Position numbers and translations under genes: made by a program | Notes under the pieces: generated by a model | What the model was told of the DNA's origin: nothing | What the model saw: the letters and a program-made list of their open reading frames with translations, nothing else | The model's database searches: none | Assembly (NCBI GenBank): GCA_028286385.1 | Contig: JAQBRQ010000013.1 | Span: forward strand, 1 to 38,053 | Origin: Candidatus Saccharimonadota bacterium | Lineage (GTDB): Bacteria; Patescibacteriota; Saccharimonadia; Saccharimonadales; UBA4665 | Direction: 5' to 3' | DNA: 38,053 nt | In this document: positions 6,418-33,856 of the stretch, in pieces | Numbering within the stretch: the stretch's first letter is position 1 | Layout: each line of letters begins with the position of its first letter

Positions 6418-6457
6418 CCTTGGCGCCTAAGGGAGTGGCTCGTCTTCTTGAGTAATC

Positions 6458-7925: not shown

Positions 7926-8738
7926 ATGGAGCTCGTCGATACGCACTGCCACATACAGTCGGCAGGTTTAACGAGTGGCGAACGCTCCACGCGAGAGTTA
8001 TGGGCAAAAAATCCCGCACTTACAGCCGATTCGCTAGTGTCAGATGCCGCCAAAGCAGGCGTAACACGTCTCATTTGTGTCGGCTGCGACCTGGAAGACA
8101 GTAAATTAGCAGTTAATTTTGTTCAGAATCACGATACTTGCTGGGCAAGTATTGGCCTGCACCCGCACGAAGCGCAACATTATGCCGGCAATCAGGCTCA
8201 ACTCGACGAGTTTGCGGCTTTAGTAACACAGCCCAAGGTCGTGGCGATTGGCGAGTGCGGTTTTGATTTTTACTATAATCACTCGCCCAAAGAAGCTCAG
8301 GTAGAGGCGCTCAAGTTTCAGCTAGAGCTGGCGCTTAAGCACGATTTACCCCTGATATTTCACGTTCGAGAGGCATTTGATGACTTTTGGCCGATCTTCG
8401 ATAGCTACAGCGATATTCGCGGTGTACTGCACAGTTTCACTGATTCAGCCGAGAATTTACAGAAGGCAATCGAGCGCGGATTGTACGTTGGCATCAACGG
8501 CATTGCGACATTTGCTAAAGATCCAGCGCAGCTCGATGTCTATAGGGCAGTCCCAGCCCAAAGGCTACTTCTAGAAACTGACGCCCCCTTCTTGACACCA
8601 ACTCCTTATCGTGGTAGTATAAATGAGCCCAAACGAGTGAGGGACGTTGCCGATTTTGTAGCTGAACTACGTGGAGAAGACCGCGAAGTTTTGGCCGCGA
8701 CAACAACCAGTAACGCTCGAGCACTCTTCGGGATATAA
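7926..8738 (+). CDS. tatD: TatD-family metal-dependent DNase
   Basis: A 270-aa TIM-barrel metallohydrolase. Metal-binding motifs in order: DTHCH (5-9), GECGFDF near residue 101, FHVREA near 145, GVLHSFTD near 162 and ETDAPFLTPTPYRG near 217. The family has 3'-5' DNase and possibly D-aminoacyl-tRNA or repair activities. metG followed by tatD is a common bacterial pairing. The start is ATG 7926, two bases after the metG stop, without its own ribosome site. A TATAAT overlaps its stop codon and probably drives the next genes. Confidence 0.95.
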   Translation: MELVDTHCHIQSAGLTSGERSTRELWAKNPALTADSLVSDAAKAGVTRLICVGCDLEDSKLAVNFVQNHDTCWASIGLHPHEAQHYAGNQAQLDEFAALVTQPKVVAIGECGFDFYYNHSPKEAQVEALKFQLELALKHDLPLIFHVREAFDDFWPIFDSYSDIRGVLHSFTDSAENLQKAIERGLYVGINGIATFAKDPAQLDVYRAVPAQRLLLETDAPFLTPTPYRGSINEPKRVRDVADFVAELRGEDREVLAATTTSNARALFGI

Positions 8739-8739
8739 T
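8734..8739 (+). promoter_or_regulatory. -10 element overlapping the tatD stop
   Basis: TATAAT (8734-8739) includes the TAA stop of tatD. It lies 16 bases before the ATG at 8756. No good -35 is seen, so confidence is modest. Confidence 0.4.
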
Positions 8740-8755
8740 TAGCGAGATATTTATT

Positions 8756-9109
8756 ATGAGCAAACCTAAACAACACTTTACAATTGCCGCCGAGAACATA
8801 GCTCGTCCTGTTAATAGGGAGAAAGTTCAAAATCGCCTGATAACTGTTACAAACGGCACAAATAACGCGCGTTTCAGTCTCTATGCAAGCTTCAATGGCG
8901 TCGCCGCTCCTGCAGAGCAGGTGGCCGCACCGGCGCCTGAAGCCGAATCAGCCGCGCCAGCTACTCCATCTGATTCAGTGCAAGTTGTTGGGATGTTAGA
9001 ACGTACCGAACAGCGCCAATTATCCGAACAGGAGCAAAAGCTTGCTGCGGCAGAGCACGCAACTGCAGAGGCGTACAATGAGGGACACAATTATGGGACT
9101 CTTGCCTAG
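8756..9109 (+). CDS. Hypothetical 117-aa protein with Ala/Pro-rich linker
   Basis: The N-terminal 50 residues (HFTIAAENIARPVNREKVQN, then RLITVTNGTNNARFSLYASF) could form a small beta-rich fold. They are followed by an Ala/Pro/Glu linker (about 51-74) and a charged helical tail. No signal peptide or membrane segment. It overlaps the next gene by 17 bases, so the pair is translated together. I do not recognise it. Confidence 0.6.
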   Translation: MSKPKQHFTIAAENIARPVNREKVQNRLITVTNGTNNARFSLYASFNGVAAPAEQVAAPAPEAESAAPATPSDSVQVVGMLERTEQRQLSEQEQKLAAAEHATAEAYNEGHNYGTLA

Positions 9110-9461
9110 AATTTTTCCCCGCACGGATGAGCAGCGCCAAGCAGATTTTGAGCAATCGTTACTCCGTCGTGAAGCAAAAATTGGCGGCCAGTTATTCGGT
9201 CCTTTACCAAAAGGTCACGAACGCCAGTTCTTTTGCTTAGACGAACACACTTGGATCTGGCACGAAGAGTGGGTTAGGGATGGCAAACGCCAAGTTATTA
9301 CGACCCGTTATGATGTCCGCCCGAATGGCGTCATTAAATCGCAAGATGGCCGAGCTAGCCAATACGTCCAAGGCGATGAAGCCCGCAACTTGTACCGCGC
9401 CGTGGAGCTCTACCAGCAACGCGTCGATGCCGATTACCAGCGGATACTTCGCTCAGCCTAA
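9093..9461 (+). CDS. Hypothetical protein, 122 aa
   Basis: ATG 9093 is selected because GAGGG lies about eight bases upstream and the body (LFGPLPKGHERQFFCLDEHT, WIWHEEWVRDGKRQVITTRY) looks like one compact alpha/beta domain rich in Trp, His and Arg. An upstream in-frame ATG at 9042 lies deep in the preceding gene and is less likely. I recall similar sequences only from Saccharibacteria, but cannot confirm that. It sits 7 bases before the cysteine desulfurase, so a shared transcript is likely. Function unknown. Confidence 0.65.
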   Translation: MGLLPRIFPRTDEQRQADFEQSLLRREAKIGGQLFGPLPKGHERQFFCLDEHTWIWHEEWVRDGKRQVITTRYDVRPNGVIKSQDGRASQYVQGDEARNLYRAVELYQQRVDADYQRILRSA

Positions 9462-9468
9462 GAATTCA

Positions 9469-10617
9469 ATGTCTGACACACTTATCTATCTTGATTATGC
9501 CGCTGCCACACCGGTGAGTGAGGCAGTGCTGCAAGCTATGCAGCCATTCATGAGCACCAATTTTTATAATCCATCGGCCACTTACAGCGCGGCCCGTGAG
9601 ACTCAGAACGCACTGGAAGCTGCCCGAACCACTGCTGCCCATTGGCTTGGTGCGCGTTCCAGCGAGATTATTTTTACGGCTGGTGGTACCGAGGCCAATA
9701 ATTTGGCAATTCATGGCATTATGCGCCGATTTCCGGACGCCAATGCCGTAGTTAGTAGCATTGAGCATGAGTCAGTCCTGGCTCCGGCGCATCGCTATGA
9801 GTGCCGTGAAGCCGCCGTCGACAAAAACGGCCGCCTGGACCTAGATGACCTAAGCAATAAAATTGATGACAAGACTGTTTTGGTCAGCATCATGTACGCC
9901 AACAACGAAGTCGGCACGATTCAGCCCGTTAAAGACGCCGGACAACTCATTGCCAATATTCGCCGTCAGCGCCAAAAGTCTGGTAACACGCTTCCAATCT
10001 ATCTGCACACCGACGCCTGCCAGGCCGCAAATTACCTCGACTTGCACGTCGCCCGACTCGGTGTCGACCTGTTAACGATTAATGGCGGAAAAGTCTACGG
10101 CCCGAAGCAGAGCGGCGCGTTATACGTAAAAGGCGGTGTTGAACTCATGCCGCTGATTGACGGTGGTGGCCAGGAGCGCAATATTCGCAGTGGTACCCAA
10201 AATGTCGCTGGTGCGGTCGGTTTTGCTGCCGCGCTTGATGCCGCTCAACAGATCAAAAACGATGAATCTAATCGCTTATCAAAATTACAACAGCATTTCC
10301 GCATGTTAATCGCACAACAACTGCCAACAGCCAGCATTAATGGCTCAAATAAACACTGCTTGCCTAATAACTTACATGTCACGATCCCCGGTTACGATAA
10401 TGAGCGACTACTGATTCAGCTCGATGAAGCCGGTATTTTAGCTGCTGCCGGGTCGGCCTGCAGCGCCAGTAACGAAGAGCCATCGCACGTGCTCACGGCC
10501 ATGGGCTTAGGTGATGAAGATGCACAGGCAAGTCTGCGTTTTACTATGGGTCGCGCTACAACAATCCAAGAGATTGAACGCGTTGTTATGGCGCTCAGCC
10601 AACTGATCAAGCACTAG
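9469..10617 (+). CDS. Cysteine desulfurase, NifS/IscS type
   Basis: A 382-aa class V aminotransferase-fold PLP enzyme that takes sulfur from cysteine as a persulfide. YLDYAAATP (7-15), TAGGTEANN (70-78), IEHES (98-102), TDACQ (181-185), the PLP lysine K208 in NGGKVYGPKQSG, and the catalytic loop GSACSASNEEPSHVL with Cys331 are all present. The residue just before the PLP lysine is Gly where IscS has His. No iscU, sufBCD or other Fe-S genes are adjacent. mnmA lies 13 kb away, so sulfur supply for tRNA thiolation is a likely role. Start ATG 9469 is seven bases after the previous stop. Confidence 0.93.
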   Translation: MSDTLIYLDYAAATPVSEAVLQAMQPFMSTNFYNPSATYSAARETQNALEAARTTAAHWLGARSSEIIFTAGGTEANNLAIHGIMRRFPDANAVVSSIEHESVLAPAHRYECREAAVDKNGRLDLDDLSNKIDDKTVLVSIMYANNEVGTIQPVKDAGQLIANIRRQRQKSGNTLPIYLHTDACQAANYLDLHVARLGVDLLTINGGKVYGPKQSGALYVKGGVELMPLIDGGGQERNIRSGTQNVAGAVGFAAALDAAQQIKNDESNRLSKLQQHFRMLIAQQLPTASINGSNKHCLPNNLHVTIPGYDNERLLIQLDEAGILAAAGSACSASNEEPSHVLTAMGLGDEDAQASLRFTMGRATTIQEIERVVMALSQLIKH

Positions 10618-16872: not shown

Positions 16873-17880
16873 TTAGTTGACGACAAAGTAGTCAAAGGCG
16901 AATGAACTACCGGTTGGTGGCGCGCTGGAATCGCAGATACTAAAGCTGCTCGTTGTGCGGTTTACATAGTAGTCGATGGTACCGGCAGCTGAACCGACCG
17001 GTGTTATGATCACCCGCGGCGTACTGTTGTACTTGCTCGCGAAATTGATGGTGATAAAGCAGCCGGCTGGCGCGCTCGTGCCAATATTAACCGTGACGGT
17101 TCCGGCGGTATCCGAGCCGTTGACGCTTGATGAGCCGCCATTGCCAAGTGCTGGTCCGCTGCTGCGACTGGGCGTAGGGCCACCAGTAACAATGTGTTTG
17201 GTGAGTATCAGGTCGCTATTGAGCTGTAAGCTTGAGGTGGTGATTTGTGGCGCTGAGATCGGGCCGCTGAAGGTGCCGCCGCCATTCACTTGTAGTGTTT
17301 TAGCAACCGTTAGCGATCCTTGGATGCCAGTGTCGCCAGCTACCGATAAGTCTTTGTTGATCTGGGCTTGGCCAAGCTGGGTCGTGCCGGAGACAGTTAT
17401 ATTAGACAATGCCACCGTGCCACCGATACGCAGATTGCCAGCCACTTCAAGGTCTTCGCGGACCAGTACTTTGCCGGCAAACACAGCGCTGGATTGGACG
17501 TTTAGAATTTGTTGGGTGCTACCAACAGTGGCATCGCTAGACCCCACCTGTCTGAGCGCGTCCGCCGTTAGAGCCTGGGTTTTGAGGATGCTGGTCGTCG
17601 ATGCTTTCTTGCTTTGGAAATAGGCAACCGTCAAAATACTGCCAGCAATGACCAAAAGAAAAACAAACAGGATTAAATACAGATTGAAGCGAACTAAATT
17701 GTGCTTGAGACCACCTTTTTTTGGCGAACTTGGCGGTGCCCCTGCAGTGCCGTTTGTTGAGGTGGCATCAATGACGCCGCTATCTTGCGGTTCGAGCGCA
17801 TTAACGTCGTCGTTGGTTGCTTCTAGGCTTGCTGCTTCCTGATCGGCAGCTGGTGCCACGGGTGTTTCTGACTCAGCCAT
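16873..17880 (-). CDS. Membrane-anchored beta-repeat surface protein
   Basis: 335 aa. A cytoplasmic acidic/Pro-rich N-terminus (1-62) precedes one membrane helix (LYLILFVFLLVIAGSILTVA, about 68-87). Outside the cell there is a series of short repeats with the rhythm GxLxIGGTxxLSNIxVSGTT (about 125-225), typical of polymer-forming or beta-helix proteins. A Ser/Gly linker leads to a C-terminal domain (about 260-335) with PRVIITPVGSAAGTIDYYVN and FAFDYFVVN, resembling tail-fibre/H-type-lectin-like beta sandwiches. It probably forms a stalk with a binding head; the ligand is unknown. Confidence 0.65.
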   Translation of the reverse strand: MAESETPVAPAADQEAASLEATNDDVNALEPQDSGVIDATSTNGTAGAPPSSPKKGGLKHNLVRFNLYLILFVFLLVIAGSILTVAYFQSKKASTTSILKTQALTADALRQVGSSDATVGSTQQILNVQSSAVFAGKVLVREDLEVAGNLRIGGTVALSNITVSGTTQLGQAQINKDLSVAGDTGIQGSLTVAKTLQVNGGGTFSGPISAPQITTSSLQLNSDLILTKHIVTGGPTPSRSSGPALGNGGSSSVNGSDTAGTVTVNIGTSAPAGCFITINFASKYNSTPRVIITPVGSAAGTIDYYVNRTTSSFSICDSSAPPTGSSFAFDYFVVN

Positions 17881-17964: not shown

Positions 17965-18699
17965 ATGGCGTGGAAACAAACAGCAAAATACGTGATCGCC
18001 CTGATGCTTCCGGTACTTCTATTGCCGGCAGTAGCTTTAGCTGCCCAGTCATCATCGAGTAACTATCAAGTTAATGAAGTATTCTTCGGCAGTGGTGGTG
18101 AACTCAATGCCTGCTCCACTTCCTACTGCTCCAAGCAGTCTGCCGGCGATCTTGCTGTTGGCAGCACGGCAAGCAATAGCTATCGGGCGCAAGCCGGTTT
18201 TAACACCGATCGCTCGCCGTATATTGAGTTCACGGTTAATAACACCAATATCAATCTTGGAACCCTAACTGCAACTAGTACTAGAACTGCCACAGCGTCG
18301 TTTACGGTCAAGGCCTATTTGGCGCATGGCTATAATGTTACAAACGCCTCTGATCCACCGAGTAACAACGGATACACTATGCAAGCGCTCACCATACCGA
18401 CCGCCTCCAGCGTCGGGACTGAGCAGTTCGGTATGAATCTGGTCGCCAACACTATCCCATCGACTTTTGGCGCCGACCCGACCTATACCCCTGACAACAG
18501 CTTTAGTTTTGGGCAAGTAGCCCCTGATTATAGCTCGACCAACCTCTTTAAATATCTCAAAGACGATACGGTAGCATTCTCATCGGCGAGCACAAGCGAT
18601 ACAACTTACACGGTTTCCTACCTTTTCAATATTAGCCACGTGACGCCAGGCGGCAATTACACATTGCGACACGTACTTGTCGCCACCGGTACATACTAA
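17965..18699 (+). CDS. Secreted surface protein, 244 aa
   Basis: ATG 17965 gives a clean signal peptide (MAWKQTAKYVIALMLPVLLL, cleavage after LAA); the in-frame ATG at 17926 would put 13 extra residues before it. A TATATG (17952-17957) ends seven bases before this start. The mature protein is Ser/Thr-rich and beta-prone, with two Cys in an early NACSTSYCSK motif. It ends in TPGGNYTLRHVLVATGTY, like the P-x-G-x-Y end of the next secreted genes. No sortase signal or membrane anchor. Probable envelope or matrix component; function unknown. Confidence 0.7.
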   Translation: MAWKQTAKYVIALMLPVLLLPAVALAAQSSSSNYQVNEVFFGSGGELNACSTSYCSKQSAGDLAVGSTASNSYRAQAGFNTDRSPYIEFTVNNTNINLGTLTATSTRTATASFTVKAYLAHGYNVTNASDPPSNNGYTMQALTIPTASSVGTEQFGMNLVANTIPSTFGADPTYTPDNSFSFGQVAPDYSSTNLFKYLKDDTVAFSSASTSDTTYTVSYLFNISHVTPGGNYTLRHVLVATGTY

Positions 18700-18745
18700 A
18701 ATATTGTGGGTTGTGGATAACTTTGGGCAGTTCATGCAAAAACTC

Positions 18746-18774
18746 TTGATGGCTAATCATAAGCATGGTACGAT
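18746..18774 (+). promoter_or_regulatory. Promoter of the surface-protein operon
   Basis: TTGATG (18746-18751), 17-bp spacer, extended -10 TGGTACGAT (hexamer 18769-18774). It leaves a leader of about 30 bases before ATG 18811, without a clear ribosome site. Confidence 0.8.
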
Positions 18775-18810
18775 ACCCGGGTACAACACTAAACAAAAAC
18801 AATTGGCCTT

Positions 18811-20229
18811 ATGAATAACCCGGTTACATTTACATTTAATACCAGCTTAGCCCGGCGAGTTGTCTGTGCGATGCTTGCTGCCTTATTGTGTATTGCTAGC
18901 TTGCCGATATTTGGCGATCAGCACGCTTCTGCCCAGCAGTTAGCCAGTCGAAGTATTCAGATGAGCGACGCGTCCACCAGCGGCAACGTCAATATCACAT
19001 CGGGCGTGGGTAGCGGTGTAGGCGTAACTTATCGCGTGTCATTTACGTCGAAGGTTAGAGCTAACAGCTTAATCATCGATTTCTGTAAAGAAGCTCCAAT
19101 TATCAACGACACTTGCAATGCTCCGACTGGTTTTGATGCTTCCTCCAGTAGTTTATCGGGCGTTACCGGCAAAGTATCAGCAGCCAATAACTGGACGCGC
19201 ACAGCCTCAGCTGGCCAGGTAAAACTAGCCAATACGACGAGCTCGGGCGGCAGCGCTGACAGCATGAGCCAAACAGGTACGCAATTAGTGCCAGTGTCAC
19301 AGACCCAAGTCTTTGATATAACAGGCATTACTAACCCGAATGTGTCGGCGTGTACGGTGTCAGGAACTCCCAATTGTTCGTTCTACGCTCGAATTTATAC
19401 GTATGATAATAACTCCTGGGGCACTTATTCTAGCGCCGTCCTTGCGGGGAACTACGTTGATTATGGTGGTATCGCGCTTAGTACGACCACGGTCATTACT
19501 ATTACGGCTCGCGTTCAGGAATCGCTGACTTTCTGTGTTGCTGCTTCCGACCCAGCCACGTGGTTGACTCCTGTCGGTTCTGGCGCAGCGTATGACTGTA
19601 GCACCTCCGAGGTCGCCGCGGCCCCGCCGACGTTAACCTTAGGACACGGCTCGCCGACTTTAATATTGGACAGCAACTCCGCGGATACGGCCCCTATGTG
19701 GTCTTCGCTATCGACTAATGCTACCAGCGGCGCCGTCATTAATCTAGTCAACAGCAATGTTACCTGTGGTGGCTTGAGCGCCGATAACGGTACCACGTGT
19801 GCGATACCAGCTGTTAACAGCGGTAGTGCTACAACTGGTAGCGCCAATGCCATCGAAGCCAATGCTGGTACTGCGGCCTTCGGTATGTTTGCCGGCAATG
19901 TCGCTTCTGCTACTAGTACCACTGCCAGCAGCGTTGGTACAGTTACGCCAAACGCGCCGTATCACACCTCTGGCCATGCCAAGCGACAAGTTGCTGCTGA
20001 TCCGGACACTTACTACGGTATGGATACCACGACTGCTCAGGTCAACGGCAACACGCCATCAGGGACACCCGGTAATGTCAAAACAACCTTTGGTAGTATT
20101 GTAGCTAGCACGTCTAGCCCAGTCTACCGTGCATACAATATGTATGTTTTTGCCGCCACTGCAGCGCTGACCACTCCGGCTGGTATCTACACCGCCAACC
20201 TCAGCATGATTGCAACGGGCACCTTCTAG
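18811..20229 (+). CDS. Secreted Thr/Ser-rich surface protein, 472 aa (paralogue of the next gene)
   Basis: A hydrophobic signal segment (about 15-35) ends near QHASAQQ. The mature part is beta-prone. It shares with the next gene, in order: LIIDFCKEAP, CNAPTGFDAS, FYARIYTYDN, DYGGIALSTT and ESLTFCVA, then a P-A-G-x-Y C-terminal motif (TPAGIYTANLSMIATGTF). Paired Cys in the shared blocks could form disulfides. No anchor is visible, so it is either released or held by a partner such as the DUF916-like protein downstream. The spaced blocks resemble WxL-type wall proteins, though no W-x-L motif is present. Confidence 0.7.
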   Translation: MNNPVTFTFNTSLARRVVCAMLAALLCIASLPIFGDQHASAQQLASRSIQMSDASTSGNVNITSGVGSGVGVTYRVSFTSKVRANSLIIDFCKEAPIINDTCNAPTGFDASSSSLSGVTGKVSAANNWTRTASAGQVKLANTTSSGGSADSMSQTGTQLVPVSQTQVFDITGITNPNVSACTVSGTPNCSFYARIYTYDNNSWGTYSSAVLAGNYVDYGGIALSTTTVITITARVQESLTFCVAASDPATWLTPVGSGAAYDCSTSEVAAAPPTLTLGHGSPTLILDSNSADTAPMWSSLSTNATSGAVINLVNSNVTCGGLSADNGTTCAIPAVNSGSATTGSANAIEANAGTAAFGMFAGNVASATSTTASSVGTVTPNAPYHTSGHAKRQVAADPDTYYGMDTTTAQVNGNTPSGTPGNVKTTFGSIVASTSSPVYRAYNMYVFAATAALTTPAGIYTANLSMIATGTF

Positions 20230-20236
20230 GACCGGA

Positions 20237-20255
20237 AATGAATGAACCATTCATT
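20237..20255 (+). promoter_or_regulatory. Hairpin covering a start codon
   Basis: AATGAATG (20237-20244) is a perfect reverse complement of CATTCATT (20248-20255), with loop AAC. The stem contains the ATG (20242-20244) of the second surface gene, so translation may depend on ribosomes finishing the gene before it, 12 bases upstream. Confidence 0.6.
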
Positions 20256-21312
20256 CGTCCTCAAGCGACCACCAACTAGAAAACTACTAGTCAGTGTTGG
20301 TTTATTATGCATGATGTTGGCTGTAGCCTGGCAGGTGCTTTTCACACCCGCCTACGGTGTCCAGCTGGGTGATCGGGCGCTACAAATTGCTAGCAGCGAG
20401 GCCAGCGCCACAACCGATTATCGCCTGACATTCACGTTACCAACTGCCGGCACGCTCGGCTCTATCGACATTGAGTTTTGTTCTAACGATCCATTCCCGG
20501 GCACAGCTTGCACGGCGCCAGCTGGTCTCGACGCCAGCACAGCTGTGCTGGCTGACCAGACCGGTGCCACCGGCTTCAGTATTGATGGCGCTTCGACCAC
20601 AAATAGGATCGTTTTAACACGACCGCCAGCGAGTGAGCCTACCGGTCCGGCCACGTATCACTTTAGCGGTGTAACGAGCCCTTCTACGCCTGGGTCATAC
20701 TATGCACGTATTCAAACTTTTGCGACCGCCGATGCGACAGGCCCAGCCAGCGATTATGGCGGTCTTGCCTTTGCTATCACCAATGCTATATCGATTAGCG
20801 CCACTGTCCCGCCATATCTTATTTTCTGTACAGGCGTAACCATTCCCGGCTTTAACTGTGTTAATGCAAGCGGTGATTACATCGATTTTGGTGAATTATC
20901 ACCATCGAAAGCTCACGGCGGTACGTCGCAATTTTTGGTGGCAACTAATGCTGTCGATGGCTACGGCGTCACCGTCAATGGCACTACTCTAACTAGTGGT
21001 AATAACATCATCCCGGCCATGGCGAGCAATGATGTTTCGCGGCCAGGCCTTGGGCAGTTCGGCTTCAATCTGCGGGCTAATGCAACGCCGAGCAGCGGTA
21101 GTGATCCGAGCGGGCCAGGAGCCGGTCAGCCGCAATCGAACTACAATCAGCCGAATAGCTATCGATTTGTTTCTGGCGACAGCATTGTCATTAATCCGGC
21201 TGCCGATAATATTCGGGTCTACACCTCAAGCTACATTGCCAACATCCCAACGATCCAAGCGCCTGGGATCTACGTAACGACGCTAACCTATGTTTGTCTG
21301 GCGCTATTCTAG
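20242..21312 (+). CDS. Secreted surface protein, 356 aa (paralogue of the preceding gene)
   Basis: An N-terminal hydrophobic segment (about 13-35) ends at FTPAYGVQ, read as a signal peptide. Blocks shared with the preceding gene are SIDIEFCSNDP, CTAPAGLDAS, YYARIQTF, DYGGLAFAIT, PYLIFCTGV and the C-terminal APGIYVTTLTYV. Cys positions match between the two. It is shorter because the central Ser/Thr-rich part is reduced. It starts 12 bases after the previous stop (same operon). No anchor and no catalytic motif. Confidence 0.7.
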   Translation: MNHSFVLKRPPTRKLLVSVGLLCMMLAVAWQVLFTPAYGVQLGDRALQIASSEASATTDYRLTFTLPTAGTLGSIDIEFCSNDPFPGTACTAPAGLDASTAVLADQTGATGFSIDGASTTNRIVLTRPPASEPTGPATYHFSGVTSPSTPGSYYARIQTFATADATGPASDYGGLAFAITNAISISATVPPYLIFCTGVTIPGFNCVNASGDYIDFGELSPSKAHGGTSQFLVATNAVDGYGVTVNGTTLTSGNNIIPAMASNDVSRPGLGQFGFNLRANATPSSGSDPSGPGAGQPQSNYNQPNSYRFVSGDSIVINPAADNIRVYTSSYIANIPTIQAPGIYVTTLTYVCLALF

Positions 21313-21319
21313 CACCGTC

Positions 21320-21348
21320 TTGTCAGGGTCCGTGCGGTTTGATACTAT
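21320..21348 (+). promoter_or_regulatory. Promoter of the DUF916-like gene
   Basis: TTGTCA (21320-21325), 17-bp spacer, TACTAT (21343-21348) with TG at the extended position. It starts eight bases after the preceding stop, giving a leader of about 25 bases. Confidence 0.8.
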
Positions 21349-21381
21349 TAACAATAATAAAGAAGGGAAAACATAAGCGAC

Positions 21382-22383
21382 ATGATGCGAAGCTCTATCA
21401 GGAGATCTGTGTGCTCCTTGCTGATAGCATTTGCATTGCTGCTGGGCGTCGTGCCTACGGCTAGTGCTGCGACTGCACCCACCCCTGGCGGTAATGGCTT
21501 GCGAGTGTCTCCAGTACGCACCGATCTTATTATTAGCCCAGGCGAAACCAAGGTCGTCACTATTAATGTGACCAATGTTACTTCCGCGCCAGGGACCTTC
21601 CAGACAGTTGTCAACGATTTTGTGGCTGACCCAAATGAAAGTGGCAACCCGGCCATTATTTTTAATTCAACGGAGTTTGCGCCCACTCACAGTCTCAAGC
21701 GATATGTAGGCCCCGTTACTCGCTTTACGCTCGCACCAGGCCAGCAACAAGGCATACCGATTACTATTAAGGTGCCTGCCAACGCAGCCGGCGGCGGCTA
21801 CTACGGTGCTATTCGCTTTGCGCCAGCTGGTGCTAGCCTCAGCCGCAAGCAGCAGGTTAATTTGGCCGGTAGTGTCGGCTCACTGATTTTGGTCAAAGTA
21901 CCCGGTAATATTACAAATAAGCTGGCCATTGCAAGTTTTGATGCACGCACCAGGGATCGCGCCAGCAGTTTCTTTACCAGCAGTAAAAACATTGACGCGA
22001 CTGTTCGCTTCCAAAATCAGGGCAACATCCAAGAGCAGCCATTCGGCAAGGTCCTCTTAAGGGACCGCAGCGGTAAAATTCTTAACTCGTTCGAAATCAA
22101 CGCCACGAACCCGCCGGGGAACGTCCTACCAGATAGCATTCGCAAGTTCTCTATACCGGTTAACAAAGTTGGAAAATTCGGTAAGTTTAAGCTAGAAGGC
22201 AATTTTGGTTACGGCACCAGCGGCCAATTGTTGAGTGGCAGCACAACCTTTTACGTTATTCCATCCTGGATGATCCTGACGTTTGTCGGCGTAGTACTAT
22301 TCTTGGTCTTCCTGATCTTTGGAGTACCTCGACTAGTTAGAGCCTACAATCAGCGTGTTCTCAGGCGAGCTGGCCGACGCTAG
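21382..22383 (+). CDS. DUF916-like membrane-anchored surface protein
   Basis: 333 aa. Signal peptide (to about residue 29, TASAAT), then an Ig-like domain with LRVSPVRTDLIISPGETKVV and RFTLAPGQQQGIPITIKVPA, then GGGYYGAIRFAP. A second beta domain follows (about 190-285), then a C-terminal membrane helix (about 292-315) and a basic cytoplasmic tail (RLVRAYNQRVLRRAGRR). This is the layout of DUF916 proteins, which accompany WxL surface proteins in Firmicutes and hold them at the wall. A role as anchor for the two or three secreted proteins just upstream is inferred from position. Confidence 0.75.
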   Translation: MMRSSIRRSVCSLLIAFALLLGVVPTASAATAPTPGGNGLRVSPVRTDLIISPGETKVVTINVTNVTSAPGTFQTVVNDFVADPNESGNPAIIFNSTEFAPTHSLKRYVGPVTRFTLAPGQQQGIPITIKVPANAAGGGYYGAIRFAPAGASLSRKQQVNLAGSVGSLILVKVPGNITNKLAIASFDARTRDRASSFFTSSKNIDATVRFQNQGNIQEQPFGKVLLRDRSGKILNSFEINATNPPGNVLPDSIRKFSIPVNKVGKFGKFKLEGNFGYGTSGQLLSGSTTFYVIPSWMILTFVGVVLFLVFLIFGVPRLVRAYNQRVLRRAGRR

Positions 22384-22398
22384 TCATCGGTAACGCGC

Positions 22399-22427
22399 TT
22401 TGCGCTCGGTGCTAATAAGGTTATGCT
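22399..22427 (+). promoter_or_regulatory. Candidate promoter of the first PKD-like gene (leaderless)
   Basis: TTTGCG (22399-22404), 17-bp spacer, TATGCT (22422-22427). ATG 22435 is seven bases downstream. Confidence 0.5.
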
Positions 22428-22434
22428 TATACAT

Positions 22435-23322
22435 ATGATACGGCGAGCTTCTATACTACTTATCATTGGGCTAGCGTTCGTTTGGGCGCCAGCCACCGCT
22501 TATGCTGCCGGCGCTTTTCCTAATCAGCAAGGCTCGGGCTCGGTAGGTTTGCAGGGGACAATTAGCACCGCGGCTCCAACCAGGGCAGCCACAATTACGA
22601 CGCCAAGCAATGGTGCCGTATTTACGACCGTACCAATAGCCGTCAACGGTACCTGTCCGGCTAACGTGCTCGTCAAGATTTTTGCTAATAATGTTTTTGT
22701 AGGCTCAGCGTTTTGTGCGGGCGGCAGCTACTCGGTGCAGGCCAGCTTGTTTAGTGGCCAGAATGATTTAGTCGCTCGAGTGTATGACGCACTTGATCAG
22801 TCCGGACCTGATTCTAATGTCGTGTCGGTTATCTTCAATGACGCCCAGTTCGCTCAGTTCGGCACACGCGTAACCCTGAGTAGCGTTTACGCGCAACGAG
22901 GTACGCCTCCAGGCCAGGAGCTAACCTGGCCAATTCTGTTGAGCGGCGGTACCGGGCCTTATGCCATTAGCGTTGATTGGGGCGATGGCACCTCGGCTGA
23001 CTTATCTAGCCAGGACATACCGGGCACCATAACCATCAAGCATACCTATAAAACGGCTGGAATTTACACAGTAATTATCAAGGCTATCGATAAAAACGGC
23101 GGTACCGCATTCTTGCAGCTGGTCGGGCAAGCAACCGGCGCAACCCAGAATACCAGCGGTAGAGATAGCGGCGCTAACTCGATCGTCAAAAAGGAAATCC
23201 TGTGGTGGCCGGCGCTGGCCATGTTGCCGTTAATCTTTGGTGGTTTTTGGACGGGGCGACGTTCTGAACTATTTAGTCTGCGTAAGCAGTTGGAGAAGAG
23301 TCGCGACCAAGGGAAGCTCTAG
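22435..23322 (+). CDS. PKD-like surface protein with C-terminal membrane anchor
   Basis: ATG 22435 (295 aa) fits the promoter better than ATG 22423, which would lie inside the -10. Signal peptide (to about residue 25, TAYAAG) is followed by an Ig-like module (ATITTPSNGAVFTTVPIAVN, NGTCPANVLVKIFANNVFVG). Then comes a PKD-like domain with GPYAISVDWGDGTSADLS and HTYKTAGIYTVIIKAIDKNG, and a final membrane helix (WWPALAMLPLIFGGFW) with a charged tail. Same architecture as the gene at 28094, so these are paralogues. PKD domains mediate protein or carbohydrate contacts at surfaces; the partner is unknown. Confidence 0.8.
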   Translation: MIRRASILLIIGLAFVWAPATAYAAGAFPNQQGSGSVGLQGTISTAAPTRAATITTPSNGAVFTTVPIAVNGTCPANVLVKIFANNVFVGSAFCAGGSYSVQASLFSGQNDLVARVYDALDQSGPDSNVVSVIFNDAQFAQFGTRVTLSSVYAQRGTPPGQELTWPILLSGGTGPYAISVDWGDGTSADLSSQDIPGTITIKHTYKTAGIYTVIIKAIDKNGGTAFLQLVGQATGATQNTSGRDSGANSIVKKEILWWPALAMLPLIFGGFWTGRRSELFSLRKQLEKSRDQGKL

Positions 23323-28093: not shown

Positions 28094-29254
28094 ATGAAAA
28101 AGAAGTCTCATCGACAGATGACGCCTAAGCAGTTGCGCGCGGTTCAGACCAGCCGGTATCTGCGGGTTACACACCATAAACACACGGGGCATCGTATGCA
28201 CCGGCGGACCACGTCATACCCGATGCTGGCGATGATTGTATTGTGCGTCGGTGTGTTTCTGATGAGCTGGACGCGCTTTGTGACGGCCGATACCTTCGTC
28301 TACCCTGGGCCAAAACAGGGTGGCTATACTGTCAACGCCAGTGTGCCCGGGCCGGCGCCAACCCAGGCCGCAACCATTGATACTCCTAACGAAGACGCCC
28401 GTTTTACGACCCTGCCCACCGGTGTTAGCGGTACTTGCCCGGTCAATACCTACGTTACGCTGTACCGTAATGGAGCCTTCAGCGGCGTGGCGCTTTGCCA
28501 AACTGACGGCACTTATTCGCTCCAAACCGGTTTATTTGTTGGTGCCAATGAGCTCCAAGCCCGTGTCTTTAGCCCAACTGATGTGCCCGGACCAATGTCT
28601 AGCAGCGTGAATGTGGTGTATGCGCCACCGGCGCCACCCCCGGATCCAACACCAACACCAGGCCAGGCCAGCAATCCCAACACGTCTACGCCATCATCTG
28701 GGACCGGCACATCAAGTAATCAGCCATCGAGTGGCACAGCCAGCCAGGCGGCACCGGCTGATCCGCTCATGTTCAAAACCAGCTTTAATTACCGCGGCCA
28801 GTACACCGGCACAGCCAGCACCTGGCAGCTTGATCTATCTGGGGGCAATCCGCCGTACGCCATATCAGTTGATTGGGGCGACGGCACGACCAGCTTGATC
28901 AGTCGCCCTCGCGCTGGCGTCTTCGGCATCGACCACACCTACAAAGCAGCCGGCGGGTACAAAGGCAGCTACACCGTCAAATTCAAGGCCAGCGATGCTG
29001 ATGGCACGCAGACCTACATACAGCTGCTGGCAATTGTGAATGATCCGCCGTCGGGCACCGGCGTAACCAATAAAATTGATCTGCTCGGTGGCAACACAGA
29101 GTCTGCTCCGGCTTATGTTCAAAAATTACTGCAATATGTCTGGCCGAGTTACGGCGGAGTCGTGCTGATGCTGACCAGTTTCTGGCTCGGTGAGCGCCAT
29201 GAGCTGAAGCATCTCAAACCGCAACGTGCAAAATCCCGTCATAGACATGCTTAA
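28094..29254 (+). CDS. PKD-like surface protein, paralogue of the 22435 gene
   Basis: 386 aa. A long basic N-terminus (KKKSHRQMTPKQLRAVQTSR) precedes a signal-anchor helix (MLAMIVLCVGVFLMSW, about 44-59). Then an Ig-like module (AATIDTPNEDARFTTLPTGV, GTCPVNTYVTLYRNGAFSGV) and a Pro/Thr/Ser linker (about 178-218). The PKD-like domain (PPYAISVDWGDGTTSLIS, DHTYKAAGGY) and a C-terminal membrane helix (YGGVVLMLTSFWLG) with a basic tail complete it. Two membrane segments would make an exported loop. It differs from its paralogue in the long basic N-terminus and the linker. Confidence 0.8.
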   Translation: MKKKSHRQMTPKQLRAVQTSRYLRVTHHKHTGHRMHRRTTSYPMLAMIVLCVGVFLMSWTRFVTADTFVYPGPKQGGYTVNASVPGPAPTQAATIDTPNEDARFTTLPTGVSGTCPVNTYVTLYRNGAFSGVALCQTDGTYSLQTGLFVGANELQARVFSPTDVPGPMSSSVNVVYAPPAPPPDPTPTPGQASNPNTSTPSSGTGTSSNQPSSGTASQAAPADPLMFKTSFNYRGQYTGTASTWQLDLSGGNPPYAISVDWGDGTTSLISRPRAGVFGIDHTYKAAGGYKGSYTVKFKASDADGTQTYIQLLAIVNDPPSGTGVTNKIDLLGGNTESAPAYVQKLLQYVWPSYGGVVLMLTSFWLGERHELKHLKPQRAKSRHRHA

Positions 29255-29275: not shown

Positions 29276-29282
29276 AGTGCAT

Positions 29283-30638
29283 ATGCTTCAAAAATTTAAA
29301 GCCGTTGGTAACACCGTAGCCAAGAGGGCCCGTACTGGTGCCGAACAAGCCCGTATCGGTGCTACTAAGGCCTCGGCTAACGTTCGCGCTCGAACCGCCA
29401 AGCAGGACGATCAGTACTTGGTCGCCCTCGATATCGGCACCGAATTCGTCAAAGCCCTGGTTGGTAAGGTCAGCGAAGATGGCGCCACCGTTGAGATCGT
29501 CGGTGTTGGCCGCGCGCACCAGAGTTTGAGCGATATGCAAGCCGGTGCCATCTCCGATATTGCCGGCGTCGTCGAAAATTGCGATAAAGCCCTTCATCAG
29601 GCCGAAGAACAAGCCGGCGTCAGTGTTCGCACGGCCATCATTGGTATCGCCGGCGAATTGGTAAAGGGTACGACCACAACAGTGAGAGTTGCCCGTAAGC
29701 AAGCGACCAAGCCGCTCGATATCGCCGAAATGGAAAAGATTATCAACTTAGTACAAGAACGCGCCCAAGAAAAGGCTAAGCAGCAGCTGGCTTGGGAGCT
29801 CGGCGGCAAAGAAGTCGATGTTCGCCTGGTCAACAGCGCCCTGGTATCCATCGAAATTGACGGTTACCCAGTTACCAACCCTATCGGTTTCCAGGGTAAA
29901 GACGTCGTCGTGCAACTGTACACCGCTTTCGCGCCGATGATTCACATTGGCGCCCTCGAAAAAACCGCCGAAGAACTCGACCTCGATCTGTTAGCCGTCG
30001 CTGCCGAGCCATTTGCTGTGGCCCGTGCAGTCATTGGTAATAACCCCAATCAGAACCTCAGCGCCATCTTAATGGATGTTGGTGGTGGTACAACCGATAT
30101 CGCCGTGATTAACGAAGGCGGCGTCCAAGGTACCAAGATGTTTGGCATCGGCGGACGAGCCTACACGCATGCCGTGGAGCGCGAACTCAGCGTTGAATTC
30201 GAGCAAGCCGAAGAACTCAAGCTTGGCCTAAGCACCAACAAAATTCCTTCCCAGAAGCGTCCGGCTATCGAAGCGGCGCTCAACAAAACTGCCGAAACCT
30301 GGGTTAGCGGTATCGAGCTGGCTCTGAGCGAGTTTACTAAGCTCGATCACCTGCCGCACCGCATGTTCCTTTGCGGCGGCGGTTCATCACTCGATATTCT
30401 TATGGAGCGTCTCGAAGCCACCGAATGGTACAAATCACTGCCGTTTACCCGCAAACCAAGCGTTCACCACATTCGTCCTGGCCAGGTCCCGGGCATGACC
30501 GACCTAACAGGGGACGTTACCGACCATACCTTCATTACGGCCATGGGATTATTACGTGTTGGTATGGACACAAAACAGTTCTCGGCCGGTAAATCTGGAT
30601 CAATCCGTGAAAAAATTGATAAAATGTTAAGTACCTAA
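29283..30638 (+). CDS. FtsA/PilM-like actin-fold ATPase
   Basis: ATG 29283 (451 aa) suits the promoter; an in-frame GTG at 29277 is less likely. After a basic, Ala-rich N-terminal extension of about 42 residues come phosphate-1 LVALDIGTEFVKALVG (46-61), an SHS2/1C-type region with GAISDIAGVVENCDKAL and NPIGFQGKDV, phosphate-2 AILMDVGGGTTDIAVI, and adenosine motif MFLCGGGSSLDIL. This matches FtsA, the membrane tether of FtsZ rings; PilM of type IV pili has the same fold. No pil genes are seen here and mltG is nearby, so a division role is favoured. The next gene starts two bases after the stop. Confidence 0.82.
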   Translation: MLQKFKAVGNTVAKRARTGAEQARIGATKASANVRARTAKQDDQYLVALDIGTEFVKALVGKVSEDGATVEIVGVGRAHQSLSDMQAGAISDIAGVVENCDKALHQAEEQAGVSVRTAIIGIAGELVKGTTTTVRVARKQATKPLDIAEMEKIINLVQERAQEKAKQQLAWELGGKEVDVRLVNSALVSIEIDGYPVTNPIGFQGKDVVVQLYTAFAPMIHIGALEKTAEELDLDLLAVAAEPFAVARAVIGNNPNQNLSAILMDVGGGTTDIAVINEGGVQGTKMFGIGGRAYTHAVERELSVEFEQAEELKLGLSTNKIPSQKRPAIEAALNKTAETWVSGIELALSEFTKLDHLPHRMFLCGGGSSLDILMERLEATEWYKSLPFTRKPSVHHIRPGQVPGMTDLTGDVTDHTFITAMGLLRVGMDTKQFSAGKSGSIREKIDKMLST

Positions 30639-30640
30639 CC

Positions 30641-32383
30641 ATGACTGCAAACGACAAAGACACTATTTACATCGATATCGACGACGAAATCACCGGGATT
30701 ATCGATAAATTAAAGTCCTCCAACGGTAAAATTGTCGCCTTGGTGCTGCCAAAGCGTGCCAGTGTTTTCCAGAGTATCGTTAATATGAAGTTGCTCAAGC
30801 GCGCCGCTGACGAAGCCAAAAAGCACCTGGTGCTCATCACTTCCGAAGCTGGATTGTTGCCGCTGGCTGGTCTTGCAGGTGTGCACGTTGCTAAAACCCT
30901 GACTAGTAAGCCCGAAGTCCCAGCCGGACCAATGCTCGACAGTGATGCCGAGGAAACCATTCAAGAAGGCGGCGAAACAATTGACGAGCTACCGCCAGAT
31001 GCCGCCGAGCAGCCTATTGGCAAATTAGCCGGGATCGGCGCTGCTGCAACTGGTGCTGATGGTGTTGAGACTCTAACACTCGATGACGACGAAGCGCCCG
31101 AAGCCCTCGCAGATGCAGCTGCTGCGACCAAAACTTTTGAACCGCCAAAAGGTAAAAAGAACAAAAAGCTATCCGTACCGAACTTCGAGAAGTTCCGTCT
31201 GCTCCTAGTTCTGGGCGTGCTGGCGGGCATTCTGTTGATCGGCGGCGGTGTTTACGCGGCTGTTGCTTTGCCAAAGGCGACCATCAATATTAAGACTGAT
31301 GCCAGCAATGTCGATACCAACCTCAATCTAAACCTATCTACTGCGGCCAAGACTCTCAAGGCTAGCACCAGCACCGTTCCAGCCAAATTGGCAACCCAGC
31401 AAAAGTCCAATACGCAACAAGTCACTACCACCGGTCAGAAGAACAACGGTAACAAGGCCAGCGGTAGGCTTGCTATGTCAGCTCTGATTTGTGGTTCAAT
31501 TCCTGACAACGGGCCACCAGACGTACCTGCGGGTACAGGGGTGAGCTCTAATGGTTTGACATATATCGCCCAAGAAAATACTTCATTTAGCCCAATTCCT
31601 TCTGGTCCACCAAAGAACAAATGCTACTCGTACAATGCTACCGATAGTACGACTATCATCGCGCAAAACGGAGGTTCCAGCTATAACGGTGCTAATAGCT
31701 TTGCTGTAGCGGGCCGTAAAGATGTTTCAGCGTCGGTCAGCTCGTCAATTTCCGGCGGTACCGATAACATTACCCAGGTGGTTAGTGCAACCGATATCGC
31801 CAATGTTAAAGCTAAGCTTACGGCGGCCGATGCTAACCTCAAAGTGCCACTCGAAACCGAACTAAAGCAACAAGGCTACCGCGCCATTAGCGCCACGTAT
31901 CTTGCTGGCACTCCGGCAGTTACGGTTAGCGCACAGCCCGGTGATGCAGCGAGCACCGTTACAGCAACCAGCACGGTAACCTACACTATGTTCGGTGTTC
32001 ACGATAGCGACCTCAAGAAGCTGGTCGAAGACAGTATTAAGAAAGAGATTGATACCAACAAGCAGAGCATCCTGGATAATGGCCTGAGTGGAGCAGCCTT
32101 CACCGTAACGAACCAGTCAGCAACCGATGCCCAGGTAACCTTGGCGGCGACCGCTACTGCTGGTCCGGACCTTGATGTCGCAACGATTAAGAGCGACGCA
32201 GCGGGCAAAAAGGGTGCTGACATTCGCGCCTCACTTCAGAACAATCCAGATGTAAAGAGCGTCGATGTTAAACTTAGCCCATTCTGGGTTAACTCCGTAC
32301 CTAAGAAAACCGATAAGATCATTGTTAATATTGCGAAGCCTACAAGCACTAAGCCGAGCACGAGTAATGGCAGTAACCCCTAA
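30641..32383 (+). CDS. Large single-pass membrane protein, 580 aa
   Basis: N-terminal domain (1-95) with YIDIDDEITGIIDKLKSS, IVALVLPKRASVFQSIVNMK and LVLITSEAGLLPLAGLAG has a small alpha/beta look. An acidic linker (about 100-165) follows, then a basic patch (KGKKNKK) and one membrane helix (185-209). The exported Ala/Thr/Ser-rich part (210-580) contains repeats of mixed strands and helices, vaguely like baseplate-J type domains, with a Lys/Thr/Ser tail. I recall this arrangement as common in CPR genomes but know no assigned function. Tight coupling to the FtsA-like gene suggests an envelope or division partner. Confidence 0.7.
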   Translation: MTANDKDTIYIDIDDEITGIIDKLKSSNGKIVALVLPKRASVFQSIVNMKLLKRAADEAKKHLVLITSEAGLLPLAGLAGVHVAKTLTSKPEVPAGPMLDSDAEETIQEGGETIDELPPDAAEQPIGKLAGIGAAATGADGVETLTLDDDEAPEALADAAAATKTFEPPKGKKNKKLSVPNFEKFRLLLVLGVLAGILLIGGGVYAAVALPKATINIKTDASNVDTNLNLNLSTAAKTLKASTSTVPAKLATQQKSNTQQVTTTGQKNNGNKASGRLAMSALICGSIPDNGPPDVPAGTGVSSNGLTYIAQENTSFSPIPSGPPKNKCYSYNATDSTTIIAQNGGSSYNGANSFAVAGRKDVSASVSSSISGGTDNITQVVSATDIANVKAKLTAADANLKVPLETELKQQGYRAISATYLAGTPAVTVSAQPGDAASTVTATSTVTYTMFGVHDSDLKKLVEDSIKKEIDTNKQSILDNGLSGAAFTVTNQSATDAQVTLAATATAGPDLDVATIKSDAAGKKGADIRASLQNNPDVKSVDVKLSPFWVNSVPKKTDKIIVNIAKPTSTKPSTSNGSNP

Positions 32384-32804
32384 CAGCATACTGGCACTAG
32401 ACGTTGGCGCCCGGCGCGTCGGCGTGGCGGTGGCCACCGTTCAAGCCCGATTGCCGCGGCCACTCATTACGCTCATCCAGGATGACACATTCTTCGGCGC
32501 GCTAGAGAGCATCATCGAAGTTGAAGGCGTTCGGGCCGTCGTTGTAGGCTTCCCGCGCGGCATGCAAGGCCAGCATACCGCTCAAACAGATGCCATTGAG
32601 GCCTTTGTGGCACAATTAAAGCAACATGTGCCACTACCAATCCATATGCAGGACGAAGCGCTGACTTCCAAGCACGCCGAGGCCGAGCTCCAAGCCCGCG
32701 GCAGAGCCTACGATAAGGGCGATATCGATGCCTTGGCCGCCACCTATATTCTTGATGATTTCTTAAAAGAGCACCCTAATATAGCCCAAGAGGTTACCTC
32801 ATGA
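32367..32804 (+). CDS. ruvX: RuvX/YqgF-type Holliday-junction resolvase family protein
   Basis: ATG 32367 gives 145 aa and overlaps the previous gene by 17 bases. RNase-H-like fold: ILALDVGARRVGVAVA (first catalytic Asp), AVVVGFPRGMQGQ, MQDEALTSKHAE, and DKGDIDALAATYILDDFL with C-terminal acidic residues. The family includes resolvases and a nuclease for pre-16S rRNA 5' processing. Its stop overlaps the mltG start (ATGA). ruvX followed by mltG is frequent in bacteria. Confidence 0.9.
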   Translation: MAVTPNSILALDVGARRVGVAVATVQARLPRPLITLIQDDTFFGALESIIEVEGVRAVVVGFPRGMQGQHTAQTDAIEAFVAQLKQHVPLPIHMQDEALTSKHAEAELQARGRAYDKGDIDALAATYILDDFLKEHPNIAQEVTS

Positions 32805-33856
32805 GCCGCTACAACCTCGGGTCTATGCGCCGCGGCAGTTTACCGAACCGTGTCTGGATACTGGCGCTGTCGCTGCTCATTATTGCCATAATCGGAGCCG
32901 TTACTGTGCGCCACAACTACAACGACAAGCTGGGGCCGGTGAGCAATAATCAGACCACACAATTATTCACCGTTGAGCGAGGTAGCTCAGTCAAAGAAAT
33001 CGCCGAATCACTGGAATCCAAGCACCTGATTCGCAGCGCTTGGGCAATGGGGCTGTACGTGCACAGCAAAGAGTTAGGCGATAAGCTTCAGGCCGGCACC
33101 TATGCCTTTTCGCCGAGCCAAAGTACCAGTGAGATCGTCAGCACGCTCACCAAGGGCAAAGTATCAACCAAGCTAGTCACCATTTTGCCGGGGCGGCGTA
33201 TTGATCAGATTAGAGCCGACCTGATTAACGAGGGTTTTGCGCCAACTGATGTCGATCAGGCGCTTGATCCCTCTCAGTATGCTGATTTACCGGCCTTAGC
33301 CTTCAAACCGAGCACCAGCAATACGCTAGAGGGGTTGTTGTGGCCCGACTCCTTCCAAAAAGATGCCACTACCTCGCCGACAGTGATTATTCGTCAGTCG
33401 ATCGTCGAGATGGGTGAATATTTGACACCAGACGTCCAGGCTGCCTTCGCCGCGCAGGGTCTTACGACGTATCAGGGCATTACTTTAGCCTCAATAGTAC
33501 TCCAGGAGGTTAGTAAGCCTGCAGATCAGACGCAGGCCGCCCAGGTATTCCTATCGCGTCTCAAGGCTGGCATGATGCTTGGCTCGGACGCTACAGCTAA
33601 GTATGGCTCAATTGCCGCTGGTCGGGCCCCCGATTTGACCTACGATTCGCCATATAACACCTTGATTCACACCGGTTTGCCTTCAACCCCAATCAGTACG
33701 ATCACCAGTAGTTCGCTGGCTGCTGCCACCAAACCGGCAACAACCGACTGGGTGTACTTTGTCTCTGGTGACGATGGCACTACGCACTTCTCTAAGACTC
33801 TGGAAGAGCACGAAGCTCTGACCAACAAATATTGTCACGCATTGTGCGGTCGTTAG
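32801..33856 (+). CDS. mltG: MltG-type endolytic transglycosylase
   Basis: 351 aa. A short basic cytoplasmic N-terminus and one membrane helix (about 17-35) are followed by a LysM-like segment (LFTVERGSSVKEIAESLESK) and the YceG domain. Motifs: EGLLWPDSF (177-185), TLASIVLQEVSK (228-239) and YDSPYNTLIHTGLPSTPI. The usual ASIVEKE is ASIVLQE here: the first Glu is Leu, while the second, Glu236, is kept and should serve as the catalytic acid. It would cut nascent glycan strands at the outer membrane face, ending their growth. Fits the wall-growth grouping of this region. Confidence 0.92.
   Translation: MSRYNLGSMRRGSLPNRVWILALSLLIIAIIGAVTVRHNYNDKLGPVSNNQTTQLFTVERGSSVKEIAESLESKHLIRSAWAMGLYVHSKELGDKLQAGTYAFSPSQSTSEIVSTLTKGKVSTKLVTILPGRRIDQIRADLINEGFAPTDVDQALDPSQYADLPALAFKPSTSNTLEGLLWPDSFQKDATTSPTVIIRQSIVEMGEYLTPDVQAAFAAQGLTTYQGITLASIVLQEVSKPADQTQAAQVFLSRLKAGMMLGSDATAKYGSIAAGRAPDLTYDSPYNTLIHTGLPSTPISTITSSSLAAATKPATTDWVYFVSGDDGTTHFSKTLEEHEALTNKYCHALCGR

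Follow-up and report, generated by a model that had tools for sequence, protein, structure and literature searches.

Bacteria of the Candidate Phyla Radiation (CPR) live attached to other microbes, and the manner in which they hold on is largely open. A five-gene block in a Candidatus Saccharimonadota bacterium raises the question of what kind of surface system such a cell builds, and of how its secreted proteins may be held on the cell. The block (genes 1 to 5, 17965-23322) lies in a 38,053-nt stretch of DNA (contig JAQBRQ010000013.1, from an 832-kb assembly of 48 contigs); this whole stretch is referred to as the window, and its coordinates are used unless another locus is named. The small genome and matches to families specific to CPR point to a CPR cell, probably of the Saccharibacteria. 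An earlier note on this DNA had placed all five genes at or near the positions found here and had likened the block to the WxL/DUF916 systems of Firmicutes. That likeness holds for gene 4, which is related to true WxLIPs, but not for the secreted proteins, which are not WxL proteins. Since NCBIfam assigns genes 1 to 3 to the Pam pilins and PamT, the block is better called a pilus locus. Judged from its sequence, the block is mostly a CPR 'Pam' pilus operon, of a type already in NCBIfam (2026). What appears to be new beyond NCBIfam is the link to WxLIPs, a quantified C-terminal signature of the pilins and a sixth, bactofilin-like gene. The genes are as follows, with TM standing for transmembrane and Ig for immunoglobulin.

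17965-18699, forward strand: gene 1, PamT, predicted secreted pilin-like protein of 244 amino acids (NF058579, 297.9 bits, cut-off 240; NF058581, 140.6 bits, cut-off 55)
18811-20229, forward strand: gene 2, large divergent Pam pilin of 472 amino acids with two domains, assigned through the NF058581 matches of its orthologues and its domain match to gene 3
20242-21312, forward strand: gene 3, standard Pam pilin of 356 amino acids with an N-domain, a C-domain and conserved Cys pairs (NF058581, 167.5 bits, cut-off 55)
21382-22383, forward strand: gene 4, WxLIP/DUF916 homologue of 333 amino acids with a signal peptide, two Ig-like domains and a C-terminal TM helix (PF06030, hhalign, Foldseek)
22423-23322, forward strand: gene 5, PamR, 299 amino acids with a PKD/RbmA-like extracellular part and a C-terminal TM anchor (NF058578, 389 bits, cut-off 300; PKD, 27.9 bits, cut-off 23.5)
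16873-17880, reverse strand: bactofilin-like protein with an N-terminal cytoplasmic part, one TM segment, a beta-repeat region and a conserved C-terminal domain (sub-threshold PF04519, 25.5 bits, cut-off 27.9)

Genes 1, 3 and 5 exceed curated cut-offs, and the block resembles the CPR Pam system in having the same subunits in one operon. It differs in that gene 2 falls under the pilin cut-off and in that NCBIfam has no Pam name for gene 4 or the bactofilin-like gene, though both are conserved in the locus. NF058580 was considered as an absent Pam component and dropped, as it is a lipase model. The ATG at 17965 suits the family alignment of gene 1 better than an upstream TTG. Genes 1 to 3 have hydrophobic leader segments and no LPxTG, in agreement with their description as secreted and anchor-less. 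The earlier note saw two paralogues with matched Cys blocks, genes 2 and 3, and profile comparisons extend this paralogy to gene 1. Gene 2 scores only 20.9 bits against NF058581, whereas 18 of its 22 aligned orthologues match the pilin model, and both of its domains match those of gene 3 (hhalign, E-values (E) 1e-36 and 7e-35). The C-terminal domain of gene 1 is paralogous to genes 2 and 3 (hhalign, E 1.6e-43). Because these comparisons join gene 2 and the gene 1 C-domain to gene 3, all three secreted proteins are, at the level of sequence profiles, paralogues in their C-domain. The cysteines are conserved across orthologues: C80/C90 of gene 3 and C92/C102 of gene 2 are invariant, and C196/C206 of gene 3 are retained in at least 90%. 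Gene 5 is a PKD-like protein with a C-terminal TM-like segment, as had been proposed.

Gene 4 connects this locus to the WxL literature, as its relative in Lactobacillus and Enterococcus is the protein to which WxL surface proteins bind. Its reading as a DUF916-like membrane-anchored protein is borne out by a match to PF06030 (DUF916, now WxLIP_PGBD, the peptidoglycan-binding domain of WxLIPs) of 29.2 bits (cut-off 27.3), which is also found at E<=0.1 in 26 of 30 orthologues, and by its C-terminal TM helix; neither gene 4 nor its orthologues have a convincing NCBIfam match. The AlphaFold2 model (mean predicted local distance difference test score, pLDDT, 88) places a helix at residues 295-332, and the C-terminal TM segment is hydrophobic with a basic tail. 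When this model was compared with the PDB by Foldseek, the top matches were the Enterococcus faecium WxLIP (9i1y) and the same protein bound to a long WxL protein (9i25), with E 3e-12. Further fold matches include the chaperone-usher chaperones CfaA, CsuC, DraB and Caf1M, and Vibrio cholerae RbmA. The match to CfaA (E 9e-9, TM-score 0.53 by target) is a similarity of fold only, and the sequence points to WxLIP. As the TM-scores of the fold matches are moderate (0.4-0.5), the relation of gene 4 is one of superfamily level. The profile of gene 4 orthologues also aligned with 16 Lactobacillales WxLIPs over 218 columns that span both Ig domains (hhalign probability 98.4, E 9e-15; reversed control 4.7), and the DUF916 domain alone reached 97.6%. 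Because the gene 4 profile itself had served to choose these WxLIPs from WxL loci, the alignment shows the extent of the similarity and is no discovery in its own right; independent support comes from the Pfam match and the fold match. By sequence and modelled structure, gene 4 is a WxLIP homologue. Its relatives were retrieved by a genome profile search, whereas a related-locus search of one contig collection gave none. We also considered that the invariant Arg254 of gene 4 might bind the free C-terminus of a pilin, as the Arg/Lys of PapD does, and dropped this idea because Arg254 is conserved almost to the same degree in WxLIP-like proteins whose neighbouring partners have extended tails.

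Gene 4 is inherited together with the pilins. The earlier note had named the lack of such co-conservation as evidence against its proposal; among 195 genomes of the class, a strong gene 4 homologue (E<1e-30) was present in 63 of 67 genomes with a strong pilin (over the NCBIfam cut-off) versus 2 of the 128 others (Fisher p about 1e-43). At the level of 97 genera, both were found in 43, with 3 and 1 discordant (p 9e-23), which places gene 4 in 43 of 46 pilin genera. Related genomes are not independent, and for gene 4, PamR and the bactofilin-like gene the E-value limits were chosen after the match lists had been viewed; the genus-level count eases this without removing it. PamR and pilin were concordant in 61 of the class's genomes, with 6 and 5 discordant. 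At the scale of the phylum, the pilin cut-off was exceeded in 27 of 380 genomes, and matches at E<=0.001 were present in 103, of which many are weak and lie outside the class.

The bactofilin-like gene, which lies outside the coordinates of the original block and is transcribed divergently from PamT, is part of the same conserved block. Full-length-type matches to it were found in 55/67 pilin genomes vs 2/128 others, and in most loci it lies next to the cluster in divergent orientation. In about 40 loci of related genomes the common order is the bactofilin-like gene on the opposite strand, PamT, one or more pilins, the WxLIP-like gene and PamR, and the pilin loci hold several paralogous subunits each, some in tandem. 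In one locus of a related genome (L063), the bactofilin-like gene (5434-6430) and one pilin gene (8213-9523) are each split into two open reading frames (ORFs) and have a broken or misassembled look.

The pilins share a C-terminal signature, which the earlier note had glimpsed as a P-x-G-x-Y terminus. Counted back from the last residue, it consists of G(-15), Y/F(-13) and F/Y(-1), and in the three secreted proteins of the window it falls within the last 15 codons.

18652-18696, forward strand: C-terminal strand of PamT (gene 1), GNYTLRHVLVATGTY
20182-20226, forward strand: C-terminal strand of the large pilin (gene 2), GIYTANLSMIATGTF
21265-21309, forward strand: C-terminal strand of the standard pilin (gene 3), GIYVTTLTYVCLALF

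Of the 117 pilins in the loci, 116 carry this signature, vs 0 of 728 other ORFs, the latter being all non-pilin ORFs of more than 120 amino acids in the same loci; the lone exception resembles a broken or misread gene. With this count, the P-x-G-x-Y terminus can be described at the sequence level as precise, conserved and locked in position, and its suggested role in attachment is plausible. LPxT[GA] was found in the last 60 residues of none of the 117 pilins, whose chains stop at the conserved aromatic residue without a sorting tail.

How close, then, is this locus to a WxL system? The W-x-L motif, single or dual, is absent on inspection of the block translations, as had been stated. Genes 1 to 3 have no match to the WxL domain PF13731 at E<=10, and the domain was found in 0 of the 195 genomes of the class by a search that was positive in 9 of 12 Lactobacillales genomes. 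These Pfam and class-wide searches rule out genes 1 to 3 as WxL proteins, and the locus is therefore not a WxL system by sequence. In comparison with the WxL/WxLIP clusters of Lactobacillales (PF13731, PF06030, DUF3324), the likeness lies in gene 4, which as a WxLIP homologue has two Ig-like domains and a TM helix, and in its secreted partners, whose final G/x-Y-(x5)-aromatic strand resembles the second strand of WxL. The partners differ in being two-domain pilins with conserved Cys, and PamR and the bactofilin-like gene are present here.

WxLIP-like genes that lie outside Pam clusters also adjoin secreted proteins with related C-termini. Among 14 genes lying immediately upstream of a WxLIP-like gene, 6 had Y/F(-13) and a terminal F/Y; the background gave 21 of 669 ORFs, and 16 of 234 when it was limited to ORFs with a hydrophobic N-terminus. 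The 14 genes are neither pilins nor WxLIP-like; among the 8 negatives, 2 have extended Y-x-L-type tails and several look like antisense or partial ORFs. In other genomes of the class (L226, L237, L238, L241, L242), small and sometimes tandem secreted neighbours of WxLIP-like genes have ends of the kind TYTGQVTYTL, followed by a few more residues; this comes close to YxxxLTWTL, the ending of WxL proteins. These Y-x-L-type proteins were collected by tail pattern, so that their common tail is a matter of selection. They nevertheless aligned with the Pam pilin C-domain over 119 columns (probability 96, E 3.6e-9; reversed control 0.2), for which the tail alone is insufficient, and they are homologous to this domain. 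Tandem arrays of such proteins near a WxLIP-like gene occur at L237 (7829-10426) and L238 (2431-5691); they belong to no Pfam or NCBIfam family and resemble a CPR version of the small WxL proteins.

Several other arrangements of these genes were seen. In the same genome as the window, L219 (contig C14, 4975-12787) encodes two secreted proteins with Y(-13) and F(-1), then two tandem WxLIP-like genes and then a fibre-like protein of 1231 amino acids, which matches Peptidase_S74 and, below cut-off, the N-terminal model of the Bdellovibrio mosaic adhesive trimer; this may be an adhesive fibre system of its own. L220 (6914-12800) and L221 (1718-12300) hold a divergent second Pam-like cluster in the order WxLIP-like, one or two pilins, WxLIP-like and PamR-like. 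These clusters just follow a gene for a protein of at least 2000 amino acids with a related C-terminal aromatic signature.

We propose, with a probability of about 0.6, that the block is the Pam pilus operon of a CPR cell, whose non-covalent subunits are held by the WxLIP-like gene 4 through their C-terminal strand. The three paralogous subunits (PamT, the large pilin and the standard pilin) would be exported, fold as beta-rich domains and polymerise non-covalently through an edge of the C-domain, without sortase linkage. Gene 4 would dock the subunits at the cell surface by pairing its first Ig domain with the edge of the pilin C-domain, and the last pilin strand, which ends exactly at the aromatic residue, would be the element of recognition and assembly. 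In a published AlphaFold2 model, a hairpin strand of DUF916 was proposed to complete the WxL beta-sandwich (PMC10599100); gene 4 may likewise act as a membrane-tethered chaperone or anchor, as proposed for WxLIP toward WxL. PamR and the divergent bactofilin-like protein would be further envelope-tethered accessory parts. The filament would serve adhesion, and the block may take part in host attachment, as suggested in the earlier note.

Several observations weigh against this proposal. The second Ig domain of gene 4 alone has no detectable similarity to DUF3324, the host-binding domain of WxLIPs (no Pfam match at E<=10, hhalign 2.9), in which it departs from the Lactobacillales clusters, though it lies inside the full-length alignment and the fold match covers both domains. 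The comparison of the secreted proteins with WxL domains, which the earlier note had recommended, did not join them: profile comparison of the pilin C-domain gave probabilities of 7.9-62 by alignment, over the last strand or last 42 columns only. As whole domains the two are not significantly similar, and we make no claim of homology from a result that is suggestive and not proof. The gene 3 model (AlphaFold2, mean pLDDT 91.5) shows no obvious donor-strand extension; by alignment and model, only about 8 residues separate the likely signal cleavage site from the first strand. The structure models are of single chains, without a predicted interface between gene 4 and pilin. Finally, the filament is a prediction from the genes, and the word 'pilus' rests on the naming in NCBIfam, as a search of the open-access literature found no paper describing Pam pili.

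The WxLIP homology of gene 4 would also fit a cluster that builds no pilus, in which single surface proteins adhere to peptidoglycan by the C-terminal domain, with the WxLIP-like protein holding them. The Y-x-L-type proteins beside WxLIP-like genes do recall small WxL proteins by their size, their gene context and their tail. We consider such a cluster unlikely, as the class is without the WxL domain, the subunits are curated as pilins and the several paralogous, also tandem, subunits per locus fit a filament. Somewhat less likely still, gene 4 and the pilins might be co-inherited in one operon without contact, with gene 4 an independent anchored adhesin or wall-binding protein. The single-chain models give no evidence of an interface, 2 genomes have a strong gene 4 homologue but no strong pilin, and weak gene 4 homologues are frequent (131/195 genomes at E<=0.001). 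Against this stand the very tight co-occurrence and direct adjacency of the genes, the proteins with related C-termini that adjoin WxLIP-like genes away from Pam clusters and, by its entry title, the solved WxLIP-WxL complex of a homologue (9i25). A sortase-assembled pilus of the Gram-positive type is very improbable: the two sortases of the genome are encoded on contig C22, neither of them on the contig of the window, and the pilins end exactly at the aromatic residue without the sorting signal.

Like the chaperone-usher pili of the PapD/CfaA type, the proposed operon has a protein of two Ig domains next to beta-rich pilins whose C-terminal strand is conserved, and gene 4 has fold matches to their chaperones. 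The operon differs in that gene 4 is TM-tethered and that there is no usher among the block genes, a statement on the locus and not on the genome, which was not searched. Profile searches of the PDB gave no sequence relationship to chaperone-usher proteins, and a phmmer match of gene 3 to CfaB (E 0.0023) vanished with the family profile and was treated as chance. Published work on attachment in Saccharibacteria concerns type IV pili (PMC12206443, PMC10633639). These are likewise surface filaments, of the same bacterial group and implicated in host attachment, but they consist of other proteins, and genes 1 to 3 have no type IV pilin family match in Pfam or NCBIfam.

Downstream of the block, the window contains a further PamR-like gene.

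28094-29254, forward strand: PamR paralogue, possibly an accessory part outside the operon (NF058578, 241.7 bits, below the cut-off of 300)

It directly precedes an FtsA/PilM-like gene (29277-30638), and similar second copies of PamR lie downstream of the cluster in loci L029, L031 and L032. An ORF of 580 amino acids without a Pfam or NCBIfam match follows (30641-32383), then an MltG homologue (32801-33856) near a likely cell-wall hydrolase that combines two LysM domains with a CHAP domain (34171-35226). Promoter and terminator scans gave signals near shuffle level and were not used.

Gene 4 links the curated Pam pilus to a family with solved structures, those of the E. faecium WxLIP alone and with WxL. 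The co-inherited WxLIP relative suggests how Pam pili are held on the cell, and the holding and assembly of Pam subunits thereby becomes a concrete structural question. More speculatively, WxLIP/DUF916 proteins could be widespread in bacteria that lack an outer membrane and be their counterpart, tethered to the membrane, of PapD-type chaperones, recognising a C-terminal 'G-x-Y...aromatic' strand. WxL proteins, Y-x-L-type proteins and CPR Pam pilins might then be branches of a single system of non-covalent surface assembly that ranges from polymerised pili to single domains bound to the wall. The locus also raises the question whether a principle of assembly is common to WxL proteins and CPR pilins.

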